Positions 3,303-35,461 of a stretch of DNA of 64,000 nt are shown here, one piece after another (positions within the stretch are counted from its first letter, which is position 1; each line of letters opens with the position of its first letter). The notes under the pieces were generated by a model. The model had not been told where the DNA came from, did no database searches, and saw only the letters and a program-made list of their open reading frames with translations. The position numbers were made by a program, and so were the translations under genes. This DNA is from Flavobacterium sediminilitoris. GTDB lineage: Bacteria > Bacteroidota > Bacteroidia > Flavobacteriales > Flavobacteriaceae. The DNA lies in the NCBI RefSeq assembly GCF_023008245.1, contig NZ_CP090145.1, positions 3,410,001 through 3,474,000 on the forward strand, read 5' to 3'.

Positions 3303-3953
3303 ATGAAATACCTCATCACCATTAAAAAATACAAAAAATCTCTTTTATCACTATTTGTTCTGTTATTAATTGTAATTAGTATTTCCAATTACACTATTCA
3401 AAAGAATGCAAAAAATAAAACGTATTCAACTATTAATTCAATACAAAAAAACAAAGTTGGATTAGTACTAGGAACAAGTAAATATTTAAAAAGTGGTGCT
3501 TTAAATTTATATTTTAAATATCGAATTGATGCTACTGTTGAATTATACAAAAACAATAAAATTGATTTTATATTAATTAGTGGAGATAATGGAAATGAAA
3601 AATATGATGAACCAACTGATTTTAAGAATGAATTAATAAGCGAAGGAGTTCCTGCTAATAAGATATTTTTAGATTATGCCGGTTTTAGAACCTTAGATTC
3701 GATATTAAGAGCAAAACTTATTTTTGGATTAGATCAATTTACTATAATTTCGCAGCAATTTCATAATGAGAGAGCACTTTATTTGGCTAACAAAAACGGA
3801 ATTAATGCAATTGCTTATAATGCAAAAGATGTCTCGAAACGATATGGAATAAAAGTAAAAATTAGAGAATATTTTGCTCGAACTAAAGTATTTCTTGATA
3901 TACTTTTTAAAGTAAAACCAAAATTTCTTGGTCCAAAAATTGAAATAAAATAA
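3303..3953 (+). CDS. SanA/YdcF-type DUF218 membrane-anchored protein
   Basis: One N-terminal transmembrane helix (about 15-33) is followed by a DUF218 domain. It begins with the strand VGLVLGTSK and continues with ISGDNGNEKYDEPTDF and the late FTIISQQFHNERALYLA motif. This pattern matches SanA, a family linked to envelope barrier function in enterobacteria, although the molecular activity is not settled. The ATG at 3303 is preferred over 3288, which would overlap the upstream stop. Length (216 residues) is normal for SanA-like proteins. Confidence 0.8.
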   Translation: MKYLITIKKYKKSLLSLFVLLLIVISISNYTIQKNAKNKTYSTINSIQKNKVGLVLGTSKYLKSGALNLYFKYRIDATVELYKNNKIDFILISGDNGNEKYDEPTDFKNELISEGVPANKIFLDYAGFRTLDSILRAKLIFGLDQFTIISQQFHNERALYLANKNGINAIAYNAKDVSKRYGIKVKIREYFARTKVFLDILFKVKPKFLGPKIEIK

Positions 3954-3967
3954 TTAAATATAAAGTA

Positions 3968-4264
3968 GTGAAAAACATCATTCAAAATATTAATAAAGCC
4001 TTTGATCACCGAATTCGTTTAGGAATCATGTCGGTTTTAATGGTAAATGAAAACGCTGATTTTTCAACTTTAAAAGAATTATTAGGCGTAACCGATGGTA
4101 ATTTAGCGAGTCATGCTAAAGCATTAGAAAATGAAAACTATATTACAGTTGAAAAACAATTTATTGGTAGAAAACCAAACACAAAATATATTGCCACAAA
4201 AGAAGGAAAAAAAGCTTTTCAAGAGCATATTGAAGCACTTGAAAAATTAATATCAAACAGTTAA
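3968..4264 (+). CDS. Small winged-helix transcriptional regulator
   Basis: A 98-residue winged-helix protein (MarR/ArsR-like, similar to the stand-alone winged-helix domain family PF13601) starts with GTG. The recognition region is FSTLKELLGVTDGNLASHAKALE, followed by a wing (IGRKPNTKYIAT) and a C-terminal dimerisation helix. It lies between two copies of a perfect ACTTTG-N5-CAAAGT repeat, one ahead of its own operon (1992) and one ahead of the next gene (4285). It is therefore the probable local repressor of both units. The effector is unknown, and no sensor domain is present. Confidence 0.8.
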   Translation: MKNIIQNINKAFDHRIRLGIMSVLMVNENADFSTLKELLGVTDGNLASHAKALENENYITVEKQFIGRKPNTKYIATKEGKKAFQEHIEALEKLISNS

Positions 4265-25983: not shown

Positions 25984-28098
25984 ATGGAAATATATGTTAT
26001 TAAAAGAAACGGCGATTATAAACTTTATGAAAGTTATAAAATAAAAGATGCAATCGAGAAGAGCTTTAATAGTGTAACTGTTCCGTATGATGAAAGTATT
26101 TATAAAACAGTACTAAACCAAATTGAACAAAAAGAAGTTTGGGCGGTTGAAGATATTCAAGATTGCATTGAAAAAACGCTGTTTGAAAAAGGATATTTTG
26201 ATGTAATGCGTTCTTTTATGTTATTTCGTCATACTCGAAAACTACAAAGAGAACATGTAGATGGTTTAAACGATGACACTACTTATGTAGATAGCACACA
26301 AACTATTGAAGAATACATTTTTCAAACTGATTGGCGCATAAATGCAAATGCAAATACTTCCTATTCAAATGCAGGATTAGTAAACAATACTGCGGGTAAA
26401 ATAATAGCTAATTATTGGTTAGACAAAGTTTATACTAAAGAAGAAGGCTACGCACATAGAAACGGAGATATTCACATTCATGATTTAGATTGTCTAACTG
26501 GTTATTGTGCAGGTTGGAGTTTGAGAGTGCTATTAAATGAAGGTTTTAATGGCGTTAGAGGTCGTGTAGAAAGCAAGCCTCCTTCTCATTTTAGAGAAGC
26601 ACTCGGACAAATGGCTAACTTCTTGGGAATATTACAAAGTGAATGGGCAGGCGCACAAGCTTTCAGCTCATTTGACACCTATTTGGCTCCTTATGTTTTC
26701 AAAGATAATTTATCTTTTGATGAAGTTTTAAAAGCAGTTAGAAGTTTCGTTTATAATTTAAATGTTCCAGCTCGTTGGGGACAATCTCCTTTTACGAATA
26801 TTACCTTAGATTGGGTAGTTCCCTCTGACTTGAAAGAACAAGTTCCAACTAAAAATGACATTCATCTATTTAGAGGAATTAACAAACAAGTTTTATTAGA
26901 AAAAGCAAAAGAAAGAGGCGTTTCTAACTTAGAAGAAATGCGTTACGAACATTTTCAAAAAGAAATGAACCTCATCAATAAAGCTTATTATACGGTTATG
27001 ACCGAAGGCGATGCAAATGGGCAACCGTTTACTTTTCCTATTCCAACAGTAAATATCACAGAAGATTTTGATTGGGATGGAGAGAACACTGAAATCCTTT
27101 TCGAGAATACTGCTAAAATTGGTTCATCTTATTTTCAAAACTTCATAGGAAGTCAATACATTTTAAATGAAAATGGAGAAAAGATTGAAAACGAAAGTGC
27201 TTATAAACCAAATGCTGTGCGAAGTATGTGCTGTCGTTTGCAACTCGATTTACGTGAATTATTAAAACGTGGAAACGGTCTTTTTGGAAGTGCCGAAATG
27301 ACAGGAAGTATTGGTGTAGTTACTATTAATATGGCTAGACTTGGTTATCTGTACAAAAACAATAAAGAAGACTTATATCAACAATTAGATAAATTATTAG
27401 AAATTGCTAAATCTACTTTAGAGAAAAAACGTGTCTTTATTCAAGATATGTACGAAAGAGGTTTGTTTCCTTATACCAAACGTTATTTACCCCACTTTAG
27501 AAACCATTTTTCTACAATTGGAGTAAATGGAATGAACGAAATGGTTTTAAATTTTACCGATGGTATGTACGATTTAACTTCTGGTTATGGCAATGATTTT
27601 TGTTTAGACGTTTTAGATTATATCCGAAACAGAATGAAAGAATACCAAAAAGAAACAGGTAATTTGTATAATTTGGAAGCAACACCTGCCGAAGGAACTA
27701 CCTATCGATTTGCAAAAGAAGATAAAAAACGTTTTCCTGAAATTTTACAAGCAGGAATGGAAGACAATATTTATTATACGAATAGTTCACAAATACCTGT
27801 CGATTTTACTCAAGACCCATTTGAAGCTTTACTAATGCAAGATGAGTTGCAATGTAAATACACTGGAGGAACCGTACTGCATTTATACATGAATGAACGA
27901 ATAAGCTCTTCAGAAGCTTGTAAAAACTTTGTAAAAACAGTAATAACAAACTTCAAATTACCTTATATAACAGTCACACCTGTATTTAGTGTTTGTCCAA
28001 CTCATGGTTATTTAAATGGCGAACACGAATATTGTCCGAAATGCGATGAAATTTTAATTGAGAACCTTAATAACACAACTTATGAACACAAAAACTAA
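25984..28098 (+). CDS. nrdD: Anaerobic ribonucleoside-triphosphate reductase, large part
   Basis: NrdD makes deoxyribonucleotides without oxygen. The product has an ATP-cone (1-95) and the glycyl-radical barrel, with the Cys-bearing VRSMCCRLQLDLRELL segment and MTGSIGVVTINMARL. The zinc region reads VFSVCPTHGYLNGEHEYCPKCDE. It stops at residue 704, directly after the zinc region, without the C-terminal glycyl-radical loop found in ordinary NrdD. That loop is encoded in the +1 frame at 28082-28246, overlapping the end of this gene. The pair could be two subunits, a frameshifted product or a damaged gene. Confidence 0.9.
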   Translation: MEIYVIKRNGDYKLYESYKIKDAIEKSFNSVTVPYDESIYKTVLNQIEQKEVWAVEDIQDCIEKTLFEKGYFDVMRSFMLFRHTRKLQREHVDGLNDDTTYVDSTQTIEEYIFQTDWRINANANTSYSNAGLVNNTAGKIIANYWLDKVYTKEEGYAHRNGDIHIHDLDCLTGYCAGWSLRVLLNEGFNGVRGRVESKPPSHFREALGQMANFLGILQSEWAGAQAFSSFDTYLAPYVFKDNLSFDEVLKAVRSFVYNLNVPARWGQSPFTNITLDWVVPSDLKEQVPTKNDIHLFRGINKQVLLEKAKERGVSNLEEMRYEHFQKEMNLINKAYYTVMTEGDANGQPFTFPIPTVNITEDFDWDGENTEILFENTAKIGSSYFQNFIGSQYILNENGEKIENESAYKPNAVRSMCCRLQLDLRELLKRGNGLFGSAEMTGSIGVVTINMARLGYLYKNNKEDLYQQLDKLLEIAKSTLEKKRVFIQDMYERGLFPYTKRYLPHFRNHFSTIGVNGMNEMVLNFTDGMYDLTSGYGNDFCLDVLDYIRNRMKEYQKETGNLYNLEATPAEGTTYRFAKEDKKRFPEILQAGMEDNIYYTNSSQIPVDFTQDPFEALLMQDELQCKYTGGTVLHLYMNERISSSEACKNFVKTVITNFKLPYITVTPVFSVCPTHGYLNGEHEYCPKCDEILIENLNNTTYEHKN

Positions 28099-28246
28099 CG
28101 AAGTACTAGAACAAAATCAACATTTAAGAACAAAATGCTTGGTTTATACTAGAGTAATGGGATATCACAGACCTGTAGAGAGTTTCAATATTGGAAAAAA
28201 AGGCGAGCACAAACAACGTGTTCATTTTAAAGAAAATGCGTGTTAG
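28082..28246 (+). CDS. Separate glycyl-radical domain of NrdD (54 residues)
   Basis: An ATG at 28082, overlapping the nrdD 3' end by 17 bp in the +1 frame, opens a 54-codon ORF. It encodes LRTKCLVYTRVMGYHRPVES and NIGKKGEHKQRV. This aligns with the NrdD C-terminus: E. coli has RVCGYL around its radical glycine Gly681, here RVMGY with Gly27. The later N-x-GK-x-x-E-x-K-x-R-V pattern is also conserved. Reading through the frame boundary as a longer ORF from 28058 would add only eight unconserved residues. It overlaps nrdG by 7 bp, so all three are coupled. Confidence 0.8.
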   Translation: MNTKTNEVLEQNQHLRTKCLVYTRVMGYHRPVESFNIGKKGEHKQRVHFKENAC

Positions 28247-28917
28247 CAAAATCCATTTCAAATATAACACCTTTTACTCTTTTAGACTATCCACATAAAT
28301 CAGCTTGTATATTGTGGTATGCAGGCTGTAATATGAGATGTTTGTATTGTTACAATCCTGAAATAGTTTTAGGTAAAGGAACTATTTCTTTTACAGAAGT
28401 AATTTCATTTTTAAAAACAAGAATCGGATTGCTAAATGCTGTTGTTTTTAGTGGTGGAGAATGTCTTATTCATAAAAATATACTAGAACATATTGAACTA
28501 GTTAAAAAAATGGGTTTTCTTGTCAAAATAGACACAAATGGAAGTAGTCCAAAGGTTTTAAAGAAACTATTAGACGCTAGTGTAATAGATTATGTAGCCT
28601 TAGATTATAAAGCCTTACCCAATAAATTCAAAACAATTACAAAATCTAACTTGTTTGTCGAATTTGAAGCGTCATTTGAACTCTTAAAAGCTTCTAAAAT
28701 TCCATACGAAATACGAACAACTTACCATTCTGAACTTTGTACCAATGCTGATTTAATTGAAATGCAAAATTATCTTAATAACAAAGGATATACAGGTAAT
28801 TTCTATGTCCAAAATTTTAGTAACGGAAGCGAAACACTTTCTCCTTTACCTAGATCAGTCAACTTAAAAAAGAAAGATTCAGCTTCTATTAAAAATTCAA
28901 AAATTATAATTAGATAA
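28240..28917 (+). CDS. nrdG: Anaerobic ribonucleotide reductase activating enzyme
   Basis: This radical SAM enzyme of 225 residues starts with GTG. Its cluster motif C30-xxx-C34-xx-C37 (AGCNMRCLYC) is followed by the SAM-binding FSGGECLIH and the DTNG segment. NrdG generates the glycyl radical on NrdD. It overlaps the 54-residue glycyl-radical ORF and ends at a strong terminator. The sequence resembles the NrdG type with the ITPFTLLDYP start. Confidence 0.93.
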   Translation: MLAKSISNITPFTLLDYPHKSACILWYAGCNMRCLYCYNPEIVLGKGTISFTEVISFLKTRIGLLNAVVFSGGECLIHKNILEHIELVKKMGFLVKIDTNGSSPKVLKKLLDASVIDYVALDYKALPNKFKTITKSNLFVEFEASFELLKASKIPYEIRTTYHSELCTNADLIEMQNYLNNKGYTGNFYVQNFSNGSETLSPLPRSVNLKKKDSASIKNSKIIIR

Positions 28918-29210: not shown

Positions 29211-29717
29211 TTAGCTTATCGCTTCTTGGAATGATTTTACAAAAACACCCGTTTCTTTAAAAAATACTTCTAATCTTGGTAAAGCTCTTGGCGGTGGGCC
29301 TTGTAGAACTTCTCCTGTCATAGCATCAAAATAACCTTTATGACAAGGACATTCAATTTTTCCAGAACCAGGTTCATAAAACACAGAACAAGATAAATGT
29401 GTACATTTTTGTTCGTACGCTCTAAATTCGCCATTTTCTAAATGAATAAGAATATAGGGAACTGTGCTTCCTTCAATAACAAAACCTCTAGTTCCTCCAA
29501 CAGGTATTTCCTCTTTTTCACATACATAATGTTCCCCTGCTACTTTTTCTTTAGGGTCTAAATAGGCTTTTGCAGCTACTAAACCACTTCCAACCATTAA
29601 ACCACCAGATACTAATGTTAAAAATTTAGCAAAATCACGACGGCTAACTTGTGTTGCATCTTGTTTATGAATAGGAAAATCTTTTTTCCAATTTTCATTA
29701 TTATTTTTATCAGGCAT
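29211..29717 (-). CDS. Rieske [2Fe-2S] protein with twin-arginine signal
   Basis: The 168-residue protein has a Tat motif (SRRDFAKFL, 25-33) followed by a hydrophobic stretch, then a Rieske domain. Ligands are C105-T-H107 and C123/H126. The extra cysteines C110 and C125 give the CTHLSC and CPCHKG boxes of true high-potential Rieske proteins with the internal disulfide. It should be anchored in the membrane facing the periplasm. It lies 9 bp after the ferredoxin gene in the nitrate reductase operon and may take electrons from menaquinol. Confidence 0.92.
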   Translation of the reverse strand: MPDKNNNENWKKDFPIHKQDATQVSRRDFAKFLTLVSGGLMVGSGLVAAKAYLDPKEKVAGEHYVCEKEEIPVGGTRGFVIEGSTVPYILIHLENGEFRAYEQKCTHLSCSVFYEPGSGKIECPCHKGYFDAMTGEVLQGPPPRALPRLEVFFKETGVFVKSFQEAIS

Positions 29718-29726
29718 AACTTAAGT

Positions 29727-30296
29727 TTAATATATTATTAATTCATTACTACCTTTCGGCATCATGATATTTACTTTTGTATTGACAACTTCTTTTCCAA
29801 AAACAAAAGTGTTTACTGGAGAACTGTTAGGACGCATTTCTTGAATTTCTTCTCTTGTACCATAAAATAAAGCACCACTTGGACAAACGGTTGCACACAT
29901 TGGTTTTTTACCAACGCTTGTTCTATCGTAACACATAGTACACTTCATCATTAAGTCATATTCTTCTACTTTTTTTGGTACTCCAAACGGACAAGCAATT
30001 ACACAGTTGGAACAACCAATACATCTTTCTGTATTTGCAGTATGTACAATTCCGAATTCATCTTTAGAAATAGCATCCGCAGGACAAACACTTGCACAAA
30101 CAGGATCATCGCAATGCATACAAACTTGTACTGTTGTTTGAATCGTTTCAGAACGTTCCACATAATTGACATGAATCATAGAATCTTGTCCATTTGTTTC
30201 ACATTCCGCACAAGCCATTTCACAAGCTTTACAACCAATGCAACGTTGCATATCTACAAAAAATTCTTCATTTTTATTAAAATTGGTATAATTCAT
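29727..30296 (-). CDS. Four-cluster 4Fe-4S ferredoxin subunit
   Basis: The 189-residue subunit has four cysteine groups: [40 protein letters not shown] and CTMCYDR with PMCATVCP. This is the DmsB/NrfC/FdhB type that carries electrons between a quinone-linked subunit and a molybdopterin enzyme. It has no signal peptide, so it is cytoplasmic like the catalytic subunit encoded 18 bp upstream. Confidence 0.93.
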
Positions 30297-30314
30297 ATTT
30301 TAATTTTTTATAGA

Positions 30315-32531
30315 TTAAATACTAGCGTATGCTTTCGTTTCACTTGATGGTTTTGCTTGTTGTCTTAAAGGTTCTAGTTTACAAGCAGAGACTTTAAATT
30401 CTGGAATTTTTGAAATAGGATCCAAAGTTCCAGGTGTTAATAAATTAGCCGATTTTAATCCAGACCAATGGTAAGGAATAAATACCGTGTCTTTACGAAT
30501 AGTTTCTACAATATTTGCAGGAAATATAGCTTCACCTCTTCGAGTACTTACTTTAATTAATTCATTTTGTTGAATACCATATTTTGCAGCCAATTCTGGA
30601 TGAATTTCTAATAATGGTTCTGGATATTGGTCAACTAATTTTCCAATTCTACGTGTCTGTGTTCCACTTAAATATTGTGAAACTACACGACCAGTTGTTA
30701 ATGTTACTGGATAATTTTCATCTGTAACTTCACCTGGTAATTTATAAGGAGCTGGGTTAAAGTGTGCTTTACCATCTGGTGTTTTAAACTTTTTATCTTC
30801 CCAAAGTCTTGGAGTTCCTGGATGATCTTCCGTAGGACATGGCCAAAACATTCCCATATTATCTTCAATTCTTTTATACGTAATTCCGTTATAATCGGCA
30901 GTACCTCCTTTAGAAGCAACTCTTAATTCATTAAAAATAGCTTCATTATCATCATAAGTAAACTTATCTTTTACACCTAATCTTTCTGCTAATTCTAATA
31001 GAATAGAAGTATCTGTTCTTGCATCTCCTGGTGGAGTTACTGCTTGACGAATTCTAATTACTCTACCTTCGGCAGAAGTTGTTGTTCCTTCTTCTTCTTC
31101 CTGTAATGAACCTGCTAAAACAATGTCAGCATGACGAGCCGTTTCGTTTAAGAAAAAGTCGATACATACATAATATTCTAATTTTTCTAAAGCTTCACGA
31201 ACGTAATTACTATTTGGTAAAGAAACCAATGGGTTAAAACATAAAGAAATTAAACCTTTTATTTCACCTCTATGAATGGCTTCAATAATTTCATAAGCAG
31301 ATAATCCTTTTCCAGGCAAATCTTTTTCATCTATACCCCAAACTTCAGAAATATATTTTCTGTGTTCTGGGTTTTCAATATCTCTATTTCCAGGTAATTG
31401 ATCACATTTGTGTCCGTGTTCTCTACCACCTTGACCATTTCCTTGACCAGTAATGGTTCCATAACCACAATAAGGTCTTCCAATTCTACCAGTTGCTAAT
31501 ACTAAATTGATACAACCTAAAACATTATCAACTCCTTTAGAATGATGTTCAATTCCTCTTGCATGTAATAAGAAACTTGTTTTGGCTTTACCCCAAAGTT
31601 CAGCAGCTTCTTTAATTTTTTCTTTTTTAATTCCTGTTACTTCTTCTGCCCATTCTAATGTATACTCTTTTACAGCATCGATAGTCATATCAAATCCTGA
31701 AGTATAATTATCAATAAAATCATGATCTAACATATCGTTATCAACCAAATATTTTAACATTGCCCCATATAAAGCTGAATCTGTTCCAGGTTTTACATTT
31801 AAATGCACATCAGCAGTTCTTGCTAACGGAATAACACGAGGATCAACAACAATAAGTTTTGCACCTCTATCACGTGCTTTCCATATCCAATGTGTTAATG
31901 TTGGGAAAGTTTCACTAATATTCGCTCCAGCGACAATAATAACTTCAGCATATTCTAAATCTGCATACGTATTAGAAGCTCGGTCTAAACCAAAAGCTTT
32001 TTTGTTTCCAGCACCAGCACTTACCATACACAAACGACCGTTATAATCTAGATTTTTTGTTTTAAGTGCTATACGAGCAAATTTACCAACCAAATAACTT
32101 TTTTCATTAGTTAAAGAAACTCCAGATAACATAGAAAAAGCATCATTTCCGTATTTTTCTTGAATACGTTTAATTTCTGAAACCGTTTTATCCATAGCTT
32201 CATTCCAAGAAATTGGTTCAAAACCTTTACCTTCTACTCGTTTTATAGGACTTAAAAGTCTGTCTGGATGATTATTTTGTAAGTAGCGTTGCACACCTTT
32301 TGGACACAATCTTCCTTCGTTAAAAGGAAATTCCATCCATGGTTCAAAACCTACTACTTTATTGGTTTTTACTAATAATTTTATTCCGCATTGCATACCA
32401 CAAAAGCAACAATGCGTTTCAACCACTTTATCTGGTTCGTCCCTTCCTTCATATCCATCTTTTGGTGAATAATTTAAATGAGGTCCAAATTCTTCTATAA
32501 TTTTTTCTGCTGAAACAGGTAATTTTGCCAT
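30315..32531 (-). CDS. NarB/NasC-like molybdopterin nitrate reductase catalytic subunit
   Basis: A bis-MGD oxidoreductase of 738 residues. The N-terminal [4Fe-4S] site is C41-xx-C44-xxx-C48 plus C76 (GRLCPKG). The likely Mo ligand is C168 in [12 protein letters not shown], as in Nap/Nas enzymes. No Tat signal is present, so it acts in the cytoplasm, which agrees with the two NarK transporters encoded upstream. It resembles assimilatory NarB/NasC, but the operon gives it a ferredoxin, a Rieske protein and a b-type cytochrome-like partner, implying a respiratory role. A related formate or other molybdoenzyme is the alternative. Confidence 0.85.
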
Positions 32532-32608
32532 GTCTTTATATTTTCTGTTCTTGTTTTTTTAAGTGTTCTGATTAAATCTCAACTGTAAACTATATTCACA
32601 AACTGTGT

Positions 32609-32631
32609 CTGAACACTAAAAACTGAACACT
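32609..32631. repeat. Short direct repeat CTGAACACT in intergenic spacer
   Basis: Two exact 9-bp copies (32609-32617 and 32623-32631) lie in the 113-bp gap before the nitrate reductase gene. Such CTGAACACT words are common in flavobacterial spacers from memory. No promoter box of the TGAT type is seen here. Confidence 0.4.
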
Positions 32632-32644
32632 GATTACTTATAAA

Positions 32645-33694
32645 CTATCCAAATAATTTTCCACCCTCTTGTCTAGCTTTCAAATGTGCTTGAGCTAAAC
32701 GCGATCTTTTTCCTTCTGGGCTTAAATCTAAATGTGAACTCCCATCTTCTCTATCGAAATTGAAACCTAATTCTTTTGTAACAATTTTTAAGTCATTAAC
32801 ATGAAGATTTGTTGTAAACTCTTTACCAGTATGTTCACAAATTGCCATTCCTTGCTTCATTCCTTCTTTCTTGTAAATATGAGCACCAATTTGTGCTGGT
32901 CTTTGAATAATATGAAAGAATTTTCCAAACGGAATCCAAATAAGAAACATAATTACGGTAACCGCATGCGTAACTGCAAGAAAATCAAAGGCAAAACCTT
33001 TCATAAATTGGTATGAATAGGTTAATCCCAAACCTGTTACTGAGATTGCAATTAATAAAATTAAAGGAAGTAAATCTCCTTCAAAAGTTTGTGTTGCAAT
33101 TAAACCAGGGTTTGTAAGACGTCTTCTCAAATAATAAAGAGAACCTAAAATTACCAACCAAGAAGACCAATTTAAAGCATGGAATGTTAAAAACGCAATA
33201 ACTGAACCCAACTTAAATGACATTATGTGGAAACCAAAAAAATGAGCTTCATAAATATCAATTCCTCCTGGAGCCAACGTAAAATGAATCCATCCAAAAG
33301 TCAAAGGAATTGTAATTAAAAAAGCAGAAGTACAACCAACAGCTATCATAAAATGGGCAATCCAACGGTACTTTCCTCTAGGATAAATAAATTTTTGGAA
33401 AGCAATATTTTCAATCGATTCTTTAGAAACAAACCAAAGATGAGAAAACACTTTTCCTGTTACTAAGTAACTAACTCCTCTTTTAAAATATATCCATGTT
33501 GGAGGACGTTGTAACCAAACAGAATAGCGATATACAATACCAAAAAAAGCAAATAGTGTCCCAAATAAATAGGTAATTAATGCAGCATCGAAGTTTTGTA
33601 AATTTCTAGATCCGAAAAACACCAAAGAAATCATAAAAACAGATAAAGCTGTAGCTATGAGCAATGCTTTTGTATTAAATGTTTTGTTCTTCAT
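32645..33694 (-). CDS. Membrane cytochrome b-like (NarI/DsrM-like) subunit
   Basis: The ATG at 33694 is preferred; the longer frame adds 22 charged residues before the first helix. The protein (349 residues) has six to seven hydrophobic helices. Paired histidines could bind haem b: HFMIAVGCTS, EAHFFGFHIMSF, FHALNWSSW and HAVTVIMF, followed by FGKFFHIIQRPAQ, typical of NarI/HdrE/DsrM proteins. A cytoplasmic tail of about 75 residues follows. It is probably the quinone-reactive membrane part of the nitrate reductase complex. Confidence 0.75.
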   Translation of the reverse strand: MKNKTFNTKALLIATALSVFMISLVFFGSRNLQNFDAALITYLFGTLFAFFGIVYRYSVWLQRPPTWIYFKRGVSYLVTGKVFSHLWFVSKESIENIAFQKFIYPRGKYRWIAHFMIAVGCTSAFLITIPLTFGWIHFTLAPGGIDIYEAHFFGFHIMSFKLGSVIAFLTFHALNWSSWLVILGSLYYLRRRLTNPGLIATQTFEGDLLPLILLIAISVTGLGLTYSYQFMKGFAFDFLAVTHAVTVIMFLIWIPFGKFFHIIQRPAQIGAHIYKKEGMKQGMAICEHTGKEFTTNLHVNDLKIVTKELGFNFDREDGSSHLDLSPEGKRSRLAQAHLKARQEGGKLFG

Positions 33695-33832
33695 TTGTAT
33701 ACTATAATTTGTTTTAGTGAGATAAAATTCATCTTCAAAAAAGACAAATTTTACCATCATTTAAATATAATAAAAATTTATAACTTATTCTTTCACAAAC
33801 ACTTCTGTTATGAAAAGAATTATTATAATTAT

Positions 33833-35461
33833 TTATGGATTATCCACTTCTCTTTTAGGTCCTTGATAATACCACCAGTTCAGAATTAAGCAAATTAAAT
33901 AATAAACTGCAAAACCATATAACGCATATTCAGGCGTTCCAGCAGTTACTTGTTGTCCAAATACATTAGGAATAATAAATGCTCCATAAGCAGCAATTGC
34001 AGCTGTCCAGCCTAATACAGGACCTGCTTTTTCTTTACTAAAAATATAAGGAATACTTCTAAAAGTAGATCCGTTTCCAATACCAGTTGTTAAGAATAAA
34101 ACCATAAATGCACCGAAAAATGGCCACCAATATGATTCTGGAGTTTCAGAACCTCTTGCTTGTACAACATAATAAGCAACTGTTAATGCAGCTATAATTT
34201 GAAAAATAGTACTCCACATTGTAATTTTTGCTCCACTATTCACTTTATCAGAAAGAATTCCTCCAATTGGTCTAACTAAAGCGCCAAAGAGTGGTCCTAA
34301 GAATGCCCAAAGCATAATGTTAGGAGCATTAGGGTTTACCCATTCTGGATCAACTGGATTTGAATACACAAATATATCTTGCGCTAATTTTGGAAATACC
34401 ATTGAAAACCCAATAAATGAACCGAAAGTCATGGTATAAATAATTGTCATTATCCAATTGTGTTTGTCACCCAATATTGAAAATTGTTTATTAAGATTCT
34501 CTTTTATATCAGCAGGAGTTCCATATTTCATTAATAAAACAGTAAGAACAATTACTATGGGAAGTACTATCCACATTGCAGAATCTTTCATTCCAAATGA
34601 TTCCCAAGGAATTCCAACTAACATAAAAGCACCAATACCAGCTGCTATTAAACCTAACATTATCATATATAATGTTTTTGAAATTCCTTTTGCAGTATTT
34701 GGCATACTTGGAGTTCCTGTAGATACATTATTCATTCCGAAAAATGCAGCTAAAGAAGCTAATATAATAAGCGGAACCCAAATCCATGCTGCATTTTGCA
34801 TCCCTTCAAAAGGAGCTCCTTTCGCTGTTGCAATTGCACCAGCTGTTCCACCAAATAAAGAGAATGTTACAATAAACGGAATTGTTTTTTGCATCACTGC
34901 AACTCCCAAGTTACCTAGTCCTGCATTCATACCTAATGCATATCCTTGTGCTTTTTTAGGGAAAAAGAATGAGATATTACTCATTGAAGAAGAGAAATTA
35001 CCACCACCAAGTCCAGATAATAAGGCCATAATAGCAAAGAATAAATATGGTGAATTTACATCAGACAAGGCTATTCCTGTTCCTACTGCTGGAATAAGTA
35101 ATAATGCGGTTGTTATAAAAACTACATTTCTACCACCACCTAATGAAATCAAAAAAGAGTTAGGTAATCGCAAAGTTGCTCCTGCTAAACCTGCAATTGC
35201 TGGTAACGTATAGTAAAGATTATTTACTTCTTTTAATGCATTTACATAGGCTTCAGTTCCTACCACAAGTCCATCGGTCATTCCGAAATTGAAGCCAAAT
35301 TCTTTCATGTACTTAATAAGTACGCCCCACATAATCCATACAGAGAATGCAAGTAATAATGCAGGAATAGAAGTCCATAGATTTTTATCGGCTATCTTTT
35401 TCCCTGTAGACTTCCAAAAGCCTTCGTCATCTACGTTCCAATCTTTAATATTTACTGACAT
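33833..35461 (-). CDS. narK: NarK-type nitrate/nitrite transporter (longer copy)
   Basis: The 542-residue MFS protein has about 12 helices and the nitrate signatures GGGNFSSSMSNISFFFPKKAQG and GMNAGLGNLGVAV. NarK proteins move nitrate in and nitrite out across the inner membrane. An extended loop after helix 1 (about 60-75) is present. It is the second narK of the operon, 49 bp after the first. Confidence 0.92.
   Translation of the reverse strand: MSVNIKDWNVDDEGFWKSTGKKIADKNLWTSIPALLLAFSVWIMWGVLIKYMKEFGFNFGMTDGLVVGTEAYVNALKEVNNLYYTLPAIAGLAGATLRLPNSFLISLGGGRNVVFITTALLLIPAVGTGIALSDVNSPYLFFAIMALLSGLGGGNFSSSMSNISFFFPKKAQGYALGMNAGLGNLGVAVMQKTIPFIVTFSLFGGTAGAIATAKGAPFEGMQNAAWIWVPLIILASLAAFFGMNNVSTGTPSMPNTAKGISKTLYMIMLGLIAAGIGAFMLVGIPWESFGMKDSAMWIVLPIVIVLTVLLMKYGTPADIKENLNKQFSILGDKHNWIMTIIYTMTFGSFIGFSMVFPKLAQDIFVYSNPVDPEWVNPNAPNIMLWAFLGPLFGALVRPIGGILSDKVNSGAKITMWSTIFQIIAALTVAYYVVQARGSETPESYWWPFFGAFMVLFLTTGIGNGSTFRSIPYIFSKEKAGPVLGWTAAIAAYGAFIIPNVFGQQVTAGTPEYALYGFAVYYLICLILNWWYYQGPKREVDNP

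Follow-up and report, generated by a model that had tools for sequence, protein, structure and literature searches.

We analysed a 64,000-nucleotide stretch of the Flavobacterium sediminilitoris genome (contig NZ_CP090145.1, positions 3,410,001 to 3,474,000 of the forward strand; hereafter the window), in which the anaerobic (class III) ribonucleotide reductase NrdD is divided between two genes. As judged by sequence comparison, the loop bearing the radical glycine has a gene of its own, usually beside nrdG, and the large chain keeps the other conserved parts of the enzyme. The two-gene form is very well supported and represents a new variant of a known enzyme class; action of the small subunit in trans is strongly indicated. 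We estimate a probability of roughly 0.9 that this is an obligate two-subunit reductase, in which the small subunit would be activated by NrdG and would dock in trans. The three genes overlap and lie on the + strand, with the following features.

25984..28098, + strand: nrdD large chain, 704 residues; ATP-cone and catalytic barrel, radical glycine loop absent (PF13597, PF03477, NF006126)
25990..26241, + strand: ATP-cone, residues 3-86 of the large chain (PF03477, E 1.9e-15)
27229..27234, + strand: adjacent C416 and C417 (SMCCR), presumed finger loop, invariant across 74 aligned rows of split and fused NrdD
27994..28044, + strand: zinc motif C-P-T-H-G-x8-C-P-K-C, four presumed ligands, all on the large chain
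28082..28246, + strand: separate radical-domain gene, 54 residues; ATG inside the nrdD end, +1 frame
28160..28162, + strand: codon GGA of the presumed radical glycine Gly27 (RVMGYHRP), on the 54-residue open reading frame (ORF)
28240..28917, + strand: nrdG2, radical S-adenosylmethionine activase, 225 residues; GTG start (TIGR02495, 187.7 bits, above the cut-off)

The original prediction, that nrdD ends after its zinc motif and that the radical loop lies on a separate 54-residue ORF in the +1 frame, is borne out by these coordinates and by the division of the Pfam profile. NRDD (PF13597) matches the large chain over profile positions 2-528 of 562 (E 2.2e-162), and the remaining positions 532-562 match the small ORF (E 3e-7), whose Pfam matches at E up to 1 are limited to this family. 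The 7-bp overlap predicted between the small ORF and nrdG holds as well, with the nrdG GTG at 28240 and the small-ORF stop ending at 28246. The large chain, which ends in CPTHGYLNGEHEYCPKCDEILIENLNNTTYEHKN 17 residues past the last zinc cysteine, falls in NCBIfam NF006126 (PRK08270; 1073 bits against a cut-off of 548), and NCBIfam assigns the activase to NrdG2. C416, C417, C671, C684 and C687 are invariant in the 74 aligned rows and H674 is present in at least 90% of them; a finger-loop role for C416 and C417 would follow from family membership. Class III reductases are described as bearing the glycyl radical on the catalytic chain itself. Here the catalytic barrel, the barrel cysteines with the zinc motif and the NrdG partner are all found, and the large chain ends before the radical loop.

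The source genome is a single 3.9 Mb contig holding only two NRDD pieces. A third NrdD piece or further NrdD radical loop was not found in it, nor was any match to PF01228, the glycyl-radical domain of the pyruvate formate-lyase (PFL) type; one class I/II-type reductase match (PF02867) is present. These results bear on the YfiD/GrcA precedent raised in the original prediction, under which the small protein would merely repair a damaged NrdD having its own glycine. Comparable size and logic, and the lone extra copies in phages and some bacteria described below, favour such a spare. However, neither mark of GrcA/YfiD, a PF01228 domain and a partner enzyme with its own radical glycine, was found, and the large chain has no glycine loop for a spare to replace. 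The precedent is thus apt as an analogy and fails as to the spare role, which we consider very unlikely; because the large chain lacks a radical glycine loop, the small protein is better regarded as obligate.

Conservation of the small gene and its junction

The small ORF was found in 72 of 199 Flavobacterium genomes (68 of 167 of good quality), and all 73 genus matches lie in open frames of 53-94 residues. The genus loci, five from outside and the window made up the set for measurement, of which 78 of 80 were measurable (L120 and L158 were excluded; G046, with its match at a contig edge, was not included). In all 78 loci nrdG follows the small gene. The homologue search beside NrdD proposed in the original prediction therefore returned a recurrent ORF, and the single full-length NrdD that was sought in close relatives did not appear: the same-subfamily NrdDs in the genus, family and order searches are all two-piece. 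Two apparently fused NrdDs were rejected, one (G228, an 802-residue frame) having a stop in the DNA after 721 codons with the small ORF behind it (L035), the other (G1320, 775 residues) likewise having a stop with a small ORF behind (L301).

Beyond the genus, the small ORF, searched against 5.8 billion proteins, yielded 2414 relatives of similar length, and a Chitinophagaceae query yielded 1671, with Marivirga, Cytophaga and Cyclobacterium among the matches listed. A scan of named genomes matched at least 589 stretches, of which the best 80, from genomes partly shared with the 78-locus set, were analysed. They come from Flavobacterium, Algoriphagus, Cyclobacterium, Parapedobacter, Campylobacter, Sulfurospirillum, Sulfurimonas, Nautiliaceae, an Aliarcobacter metagenome-assembled genome (MAG), one MAG of the Planctomycetes-Verrucomicrobia-Chlamydiae group and one Holosporaceae MAG; Klebsiella pneumoniae and Bifidobacterium breve MAG titles are probably mislabelled bins. 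Among these 80 loci nrdG is present in all and nrdD in 77. Plasmid records gave 29 further matches, and on plasmids of Cupriavidus necator H16 and Bradyrhizobium ottawaense the annotation shows these three genes in the same layout (on pHG1 of C. necator, a 676-residue large chain, a 66-residue ORF annotated nrdD and the activase). In C. metallidurans and Paracoccus denitrificans DNA the large open frame (587 and 648 residues, respectively) stops at the zinc motif and is followed by a small ORF. On the Allochromatium vinosum plasmid pALVIN01 a lone 69-residue ORF annotated nrdD (L507:3480-3689) stands beside a CHAP-domain gene, with no large nrdD within the 7 kb shown.

Where the small gene and nrdD are apart, the small gene stays with the activase. 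In the Sulfurospirillum phylum, with an NRDD match in 100 of 200 genomes, it adjoins nrdG and is separated from nrdD by roughly 59, 125 and 95 kb in three near-complete contigs (G1507, G1483 and G1393, respectively). A match is present in 47 of 49 genomes from the order to which the Holosporaceae MAG belongs; in the 20 cases examined with the small gene and nrdD on different contigs, nrdG adjoins the small gene in 20 of 20 and nrdD in 0 of 20, although these genomes are drafts and the separation of contigs gives no true distance to nrdD.

The junction itself varies between species. The small gene is in the +1 frame relative to nrdD in 59 of the 78 loci, as in the window, in frame 0 behind stop codons in 16 and in frame +2 in three; its ATG lies from -29 to +631 bp of the nrdD stop end, so that the two frames overlap in 45 loci and do not in 33. 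Among the 72 measurable named loci the counts for +1, 0 and +2 are 47, 10 and 15, leaving 25 that are not +1. Fused relatives have exactly six residues between the last zinc cysteine and YSRVVGY (120 of 120 among the matches listed), whereas both split sides are extended: in 150 split large chains the stretch past that cysteine has a median length of 17 residues (range 9-39), and in small chains the motif is preceded by a median of 21 (range 10-52). A programmed +1 shift, the alternative put forward in the original prediction, would give a single NrdD by a ribosomal shift at the overlap, in keeping with the predominant +1 frame and the frequent overlap. However, the constant +1 overlap expected in relatives of such a gene was not found, and the two genes are unlinked in some genomes; because frames and spacing vary among loci, a fixed shift producing one protein is excluded as a general mechanism, and for the window we consider it extremely unlikely. 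In two loci (L166 of G292 and L254, Sinomicrobium) the 631-bp spacer resembles non-coding repeat-type DNA, with both genes retained, and in L179 the spacer between nrdD and the small gene (~3770-4000) contains a partial second copy of the zinc motif and of the radical-loop start.

The small protein is under purifying selection. Against its nearest relative the window ORF differs at a proportion of 0.46 of synonymous sites (pS) and 0.023 of nonsynonymous sites (pN), and dN/dS of the small gene has a median of 0.149 and a maximum of 0.496 over 1254 comparable pairs. The leader ahead of RTKC is variable (pN 0.321) and the core is not (pN 0.079); 25 positions, the glycine included, are invariant in 25 aligned small proteins. 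The low pN relative to pS, together with its presence in 72 genus genomes, argues that the small ORF is not a chance ORF. That a recent frameshift or sequencing error broke nrdD and left two remnants, as a break at one junction, such as a single indel would make, might suggest, has a practically negligible chance, the original prediction too having argued against simple decay, since the form recurs across the genus and other phyla under purifying selection with its own start codon and leader kept, and base-calling error is excluded by a finished single-contig genome and the same arrangement in many other species.

Evolution of split and fused NrdD

From 317 NrdD frames, thinned to 102, we dropped 25 by hand (other subfamilies or near-duplicates) and built a tree of the remaining 77 cores with the split region excluded from the alignment; a long-branch warning applies among fused rows of other subfamilies. 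Forty-nine split and two fused rows form one clade (Shimodaira-Hasegawa-like approximate likelihood-ratio support 99), with two split rows elsewhere. The split/fused label changes four times on this tree, against a mean of 21.7 when shuffled, and none of 500 shuffles was as low. A mixture-model tree of 43 hand-chosen rows agrees. The approximately unbiased test, with groups defined after a tree had been seen, rejects both a split clade from which the two fused rows are excluded (p 2e-35) and a single clade of all split rows (p 1e-4). The split clade spans Bacteroidota, Campylobacterota and Pseudomonadota, and NrdDs of Cupriavidus, Bradyrhizobium and Paracoccus fall inside it (44 hand-chosen rows).

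Most simply, these trees would reflect a single old split followed by two re-fusions in Campylobacterota, with a further split arising independently; the direction of these events rests on parsimony because the tree is unrooted. Among 60 further loci, 18 are fused, comprising 16 of another NrdD subfamily and the two re-fusions, and 16 are split with the small gene nearby; the remaining 26 are split, and a motif scan of the stretch examined revealed no small gene in them. The independent split is seen in L385:2389-2553 and L395:1634-1816, where the large chain terminates in ...CPVHG...CP(LEA) and MAKCG opens the small chain. This arrangement would place the fourth zinc ligand on the small chain, giving an interchain zinc site.

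Proposed mechanism and extra copies

In the two-subunit enzyme proposed here, the small protein would be translated from its own ATG, coupled to nrdD in the window through the overlap. NrdG2 would abstract hydrogen from Gly27 of the small protein, either free or bound to NrdD, and the radical loop would dock in trans into the NrdD barrel at the position held by the fused domain in other NrdDs; beside C416 and C417, the docked loop would start catalysis. A removable radical domain fits known behaviour, because that of Prevotella copri NrdD is mobile and becomes disordered upon binding of deoxyadenosine triphosphate, as part of that report describes (PMC11226230). A likely benefit, suggested more weakly, is that a cut by oxygen at the glycyl radical would cost a 54-residue subunit and not an enzyme of >700 residues, and that the large chain could be reloaded with a newly supplied small subunit. 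According to the relevant part of PMC8683613, oxygen cleaves the chain of glycyl-radical enzymes at the glycine, and cleaved PFL is repaired by YfiD; its authors regard such spares as possible for other enzymes too, with only two, both for PFL, validated.

Several points weigh against this reading. Although the modelled pair of chains adopts the fold of one-chain NrdD structures, the model was built on 74 rows, 56 of them fused, and joins the chains through the stop codon, aided by the fused rows, and a model without them (32 similar rows) was poor, with a predicted local distance difference test score of 67.0 and <50 in the radical loop. All 273 distinct stand-alone proteins carry glycine at the radical position, which is supportive, but the count is not independent of the search, as these were gathered by similarity. 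Most NrdD-like families are still one-chain, and for C. necator H16 the NrdD analysis covered plasmid pHG1. Finally, some genomes carry extra small-gene copies, so not every copy need be an obligate subunit.

Such extra copies, which may well be spares, were seen in G1393 (L371, L372), G1488 (L373), Campylobacter concisus (L378) and G1429 (L379), where the stretch examined contains neither nrdD nor nrdG; an endolysin-like gene adjoins the C. concisus copy. In repeats of ~1.2-3.4 kb with 96-98% identity (L390, L391 and L392 in G1571; L396 and L397 in G1609), a stand-alone radical domain is flanked by AAA_24/Sak4-like, DUF669 and RusA genes, resembling a prophage module. Among viral sequences, an IMG/VR scan found 132 relatives, and 80 of them (L426-L505) were examined in stretches of 4 to 10 kb. 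The small frame is alone in 75 of these, with no nrdD or nrdG in the stretch (for example L438 ~5057, L448 ~5048 and L428 ~5063); one other has nrdD nearby, three are in longer frames and one lacks the motif. Ten ORFs neighbouring small-gene copies were scanned, and a holin, endolysins, tail proteins and a Sak4-like protein are among them, two having no PHROG match. A match to phrog_4132, whose function is listed as unknown, was obtained with the window ORF and with four other copies; L390 gave the weakest (E 0.003) and has a better match in the NrdD-like phrog_487. INPHARED phage records gave no match to the window ORF or to one phage copy.

The upstream neighbour of the reductase operon is an iron-sulfur repair protein. 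Downstream of the operon and next to it, a row of genes on the - strand (29211-35461) encodes a Rieske protein, a 4Fe-4S protein, a molybdopterin oxidoreductase, a 371-residue protein without a Pfam match and a major facilitator superfamily transporter; the neighbourhood looks like one of anaerobic respiration, and the row is perhaps for nitrate respiration. We take the split hosts recognised by name to be mostly facultative or microaerophilic, and the fused relatives Coprothermobacter and Chloroherpeton, among the matches listed, are presumably anaerobes. A tentative idea, to which we would give somewhat less than even credence, is that the radical domain is an exchangeable cartridge, co-inherited with the activase as a separate subunit in oxygen-exposed denitrifiers and microaerophiles; a swap of ~50 residues would repair oxygen damage, and phages, with copies in tail, lysis and recombination neighbourhoods, would supply their own to keep the host's anaerobic reductase working during infection, much as T4 Y06I can for PFL.

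Relation to known systems

A separate radical subunit in several phyla, including well-known denitrifiers, alters the annotation and counting of class III reductases. The two-piece NrdD also offers a simple setting in which to study how a radical passes from one polypeptide to another, makes it testable whether glycyl-radical enzymes beyond PFL can be repaired by swapping the radical-bearing piece, and suggests what a phage protein family of no listed function may do. We found no report of an NrdD whose radical domain has a gene to itself in the open-licence PubMed Central literature, which is not proof of absence and does not cover Siedow et al. 1999, cited in part of the C. metallidurans genome paper (PMC2864759) for the C. 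necator H16 pHG1 NrdD/NrdG; the same part lists Rmet_5137 and Rmet_5139 for NrdDG, without naming a gene between them. A large reductase survey, in its relevant part, dropped sequences of <400 residues (PMC9531940), so the small half would be lost.

The window enzyme resembles one-chain NrdDs (PDB 8p23/8p2s, P. copri; 4coi, T. maritima; 1h78, T4) in its ATP-cone, NRDD barrel, zinc motif, radical-loop sequence and NrdG partner, with NF006126 (PRK08270) in common, but differs in having the loop on a separate gene, a large chain extended past the zinc motif and a small chain with its own leader; a PDB sequence search with the small ORF alone gave no match. YfiD/GrcA and T4 Y06I are likewise small stand-alone radical-glycine proteins for a large enzyme, Y06I being able to serve PFL in this way (PMC8683613, in part), whereas the small ORF belongs to the NRDD family and not PF01228, replaces nothing and travels with nrdG. 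NrdJa/NrdJb, in the part of PMC9669993 concerned, is also a two-chain ribonucleotide reductase, but of class II. Phage nrdD genes in pieces, six cases in the relevant part of PMC3653736, are attributed there to introns, inteins or an unknown cause and are not a conserved cellular radical-domain gene. A further known system is NrdD/NrdG of C. necator H16 pHG1, which has the same arrangement and is a member of the split clade.
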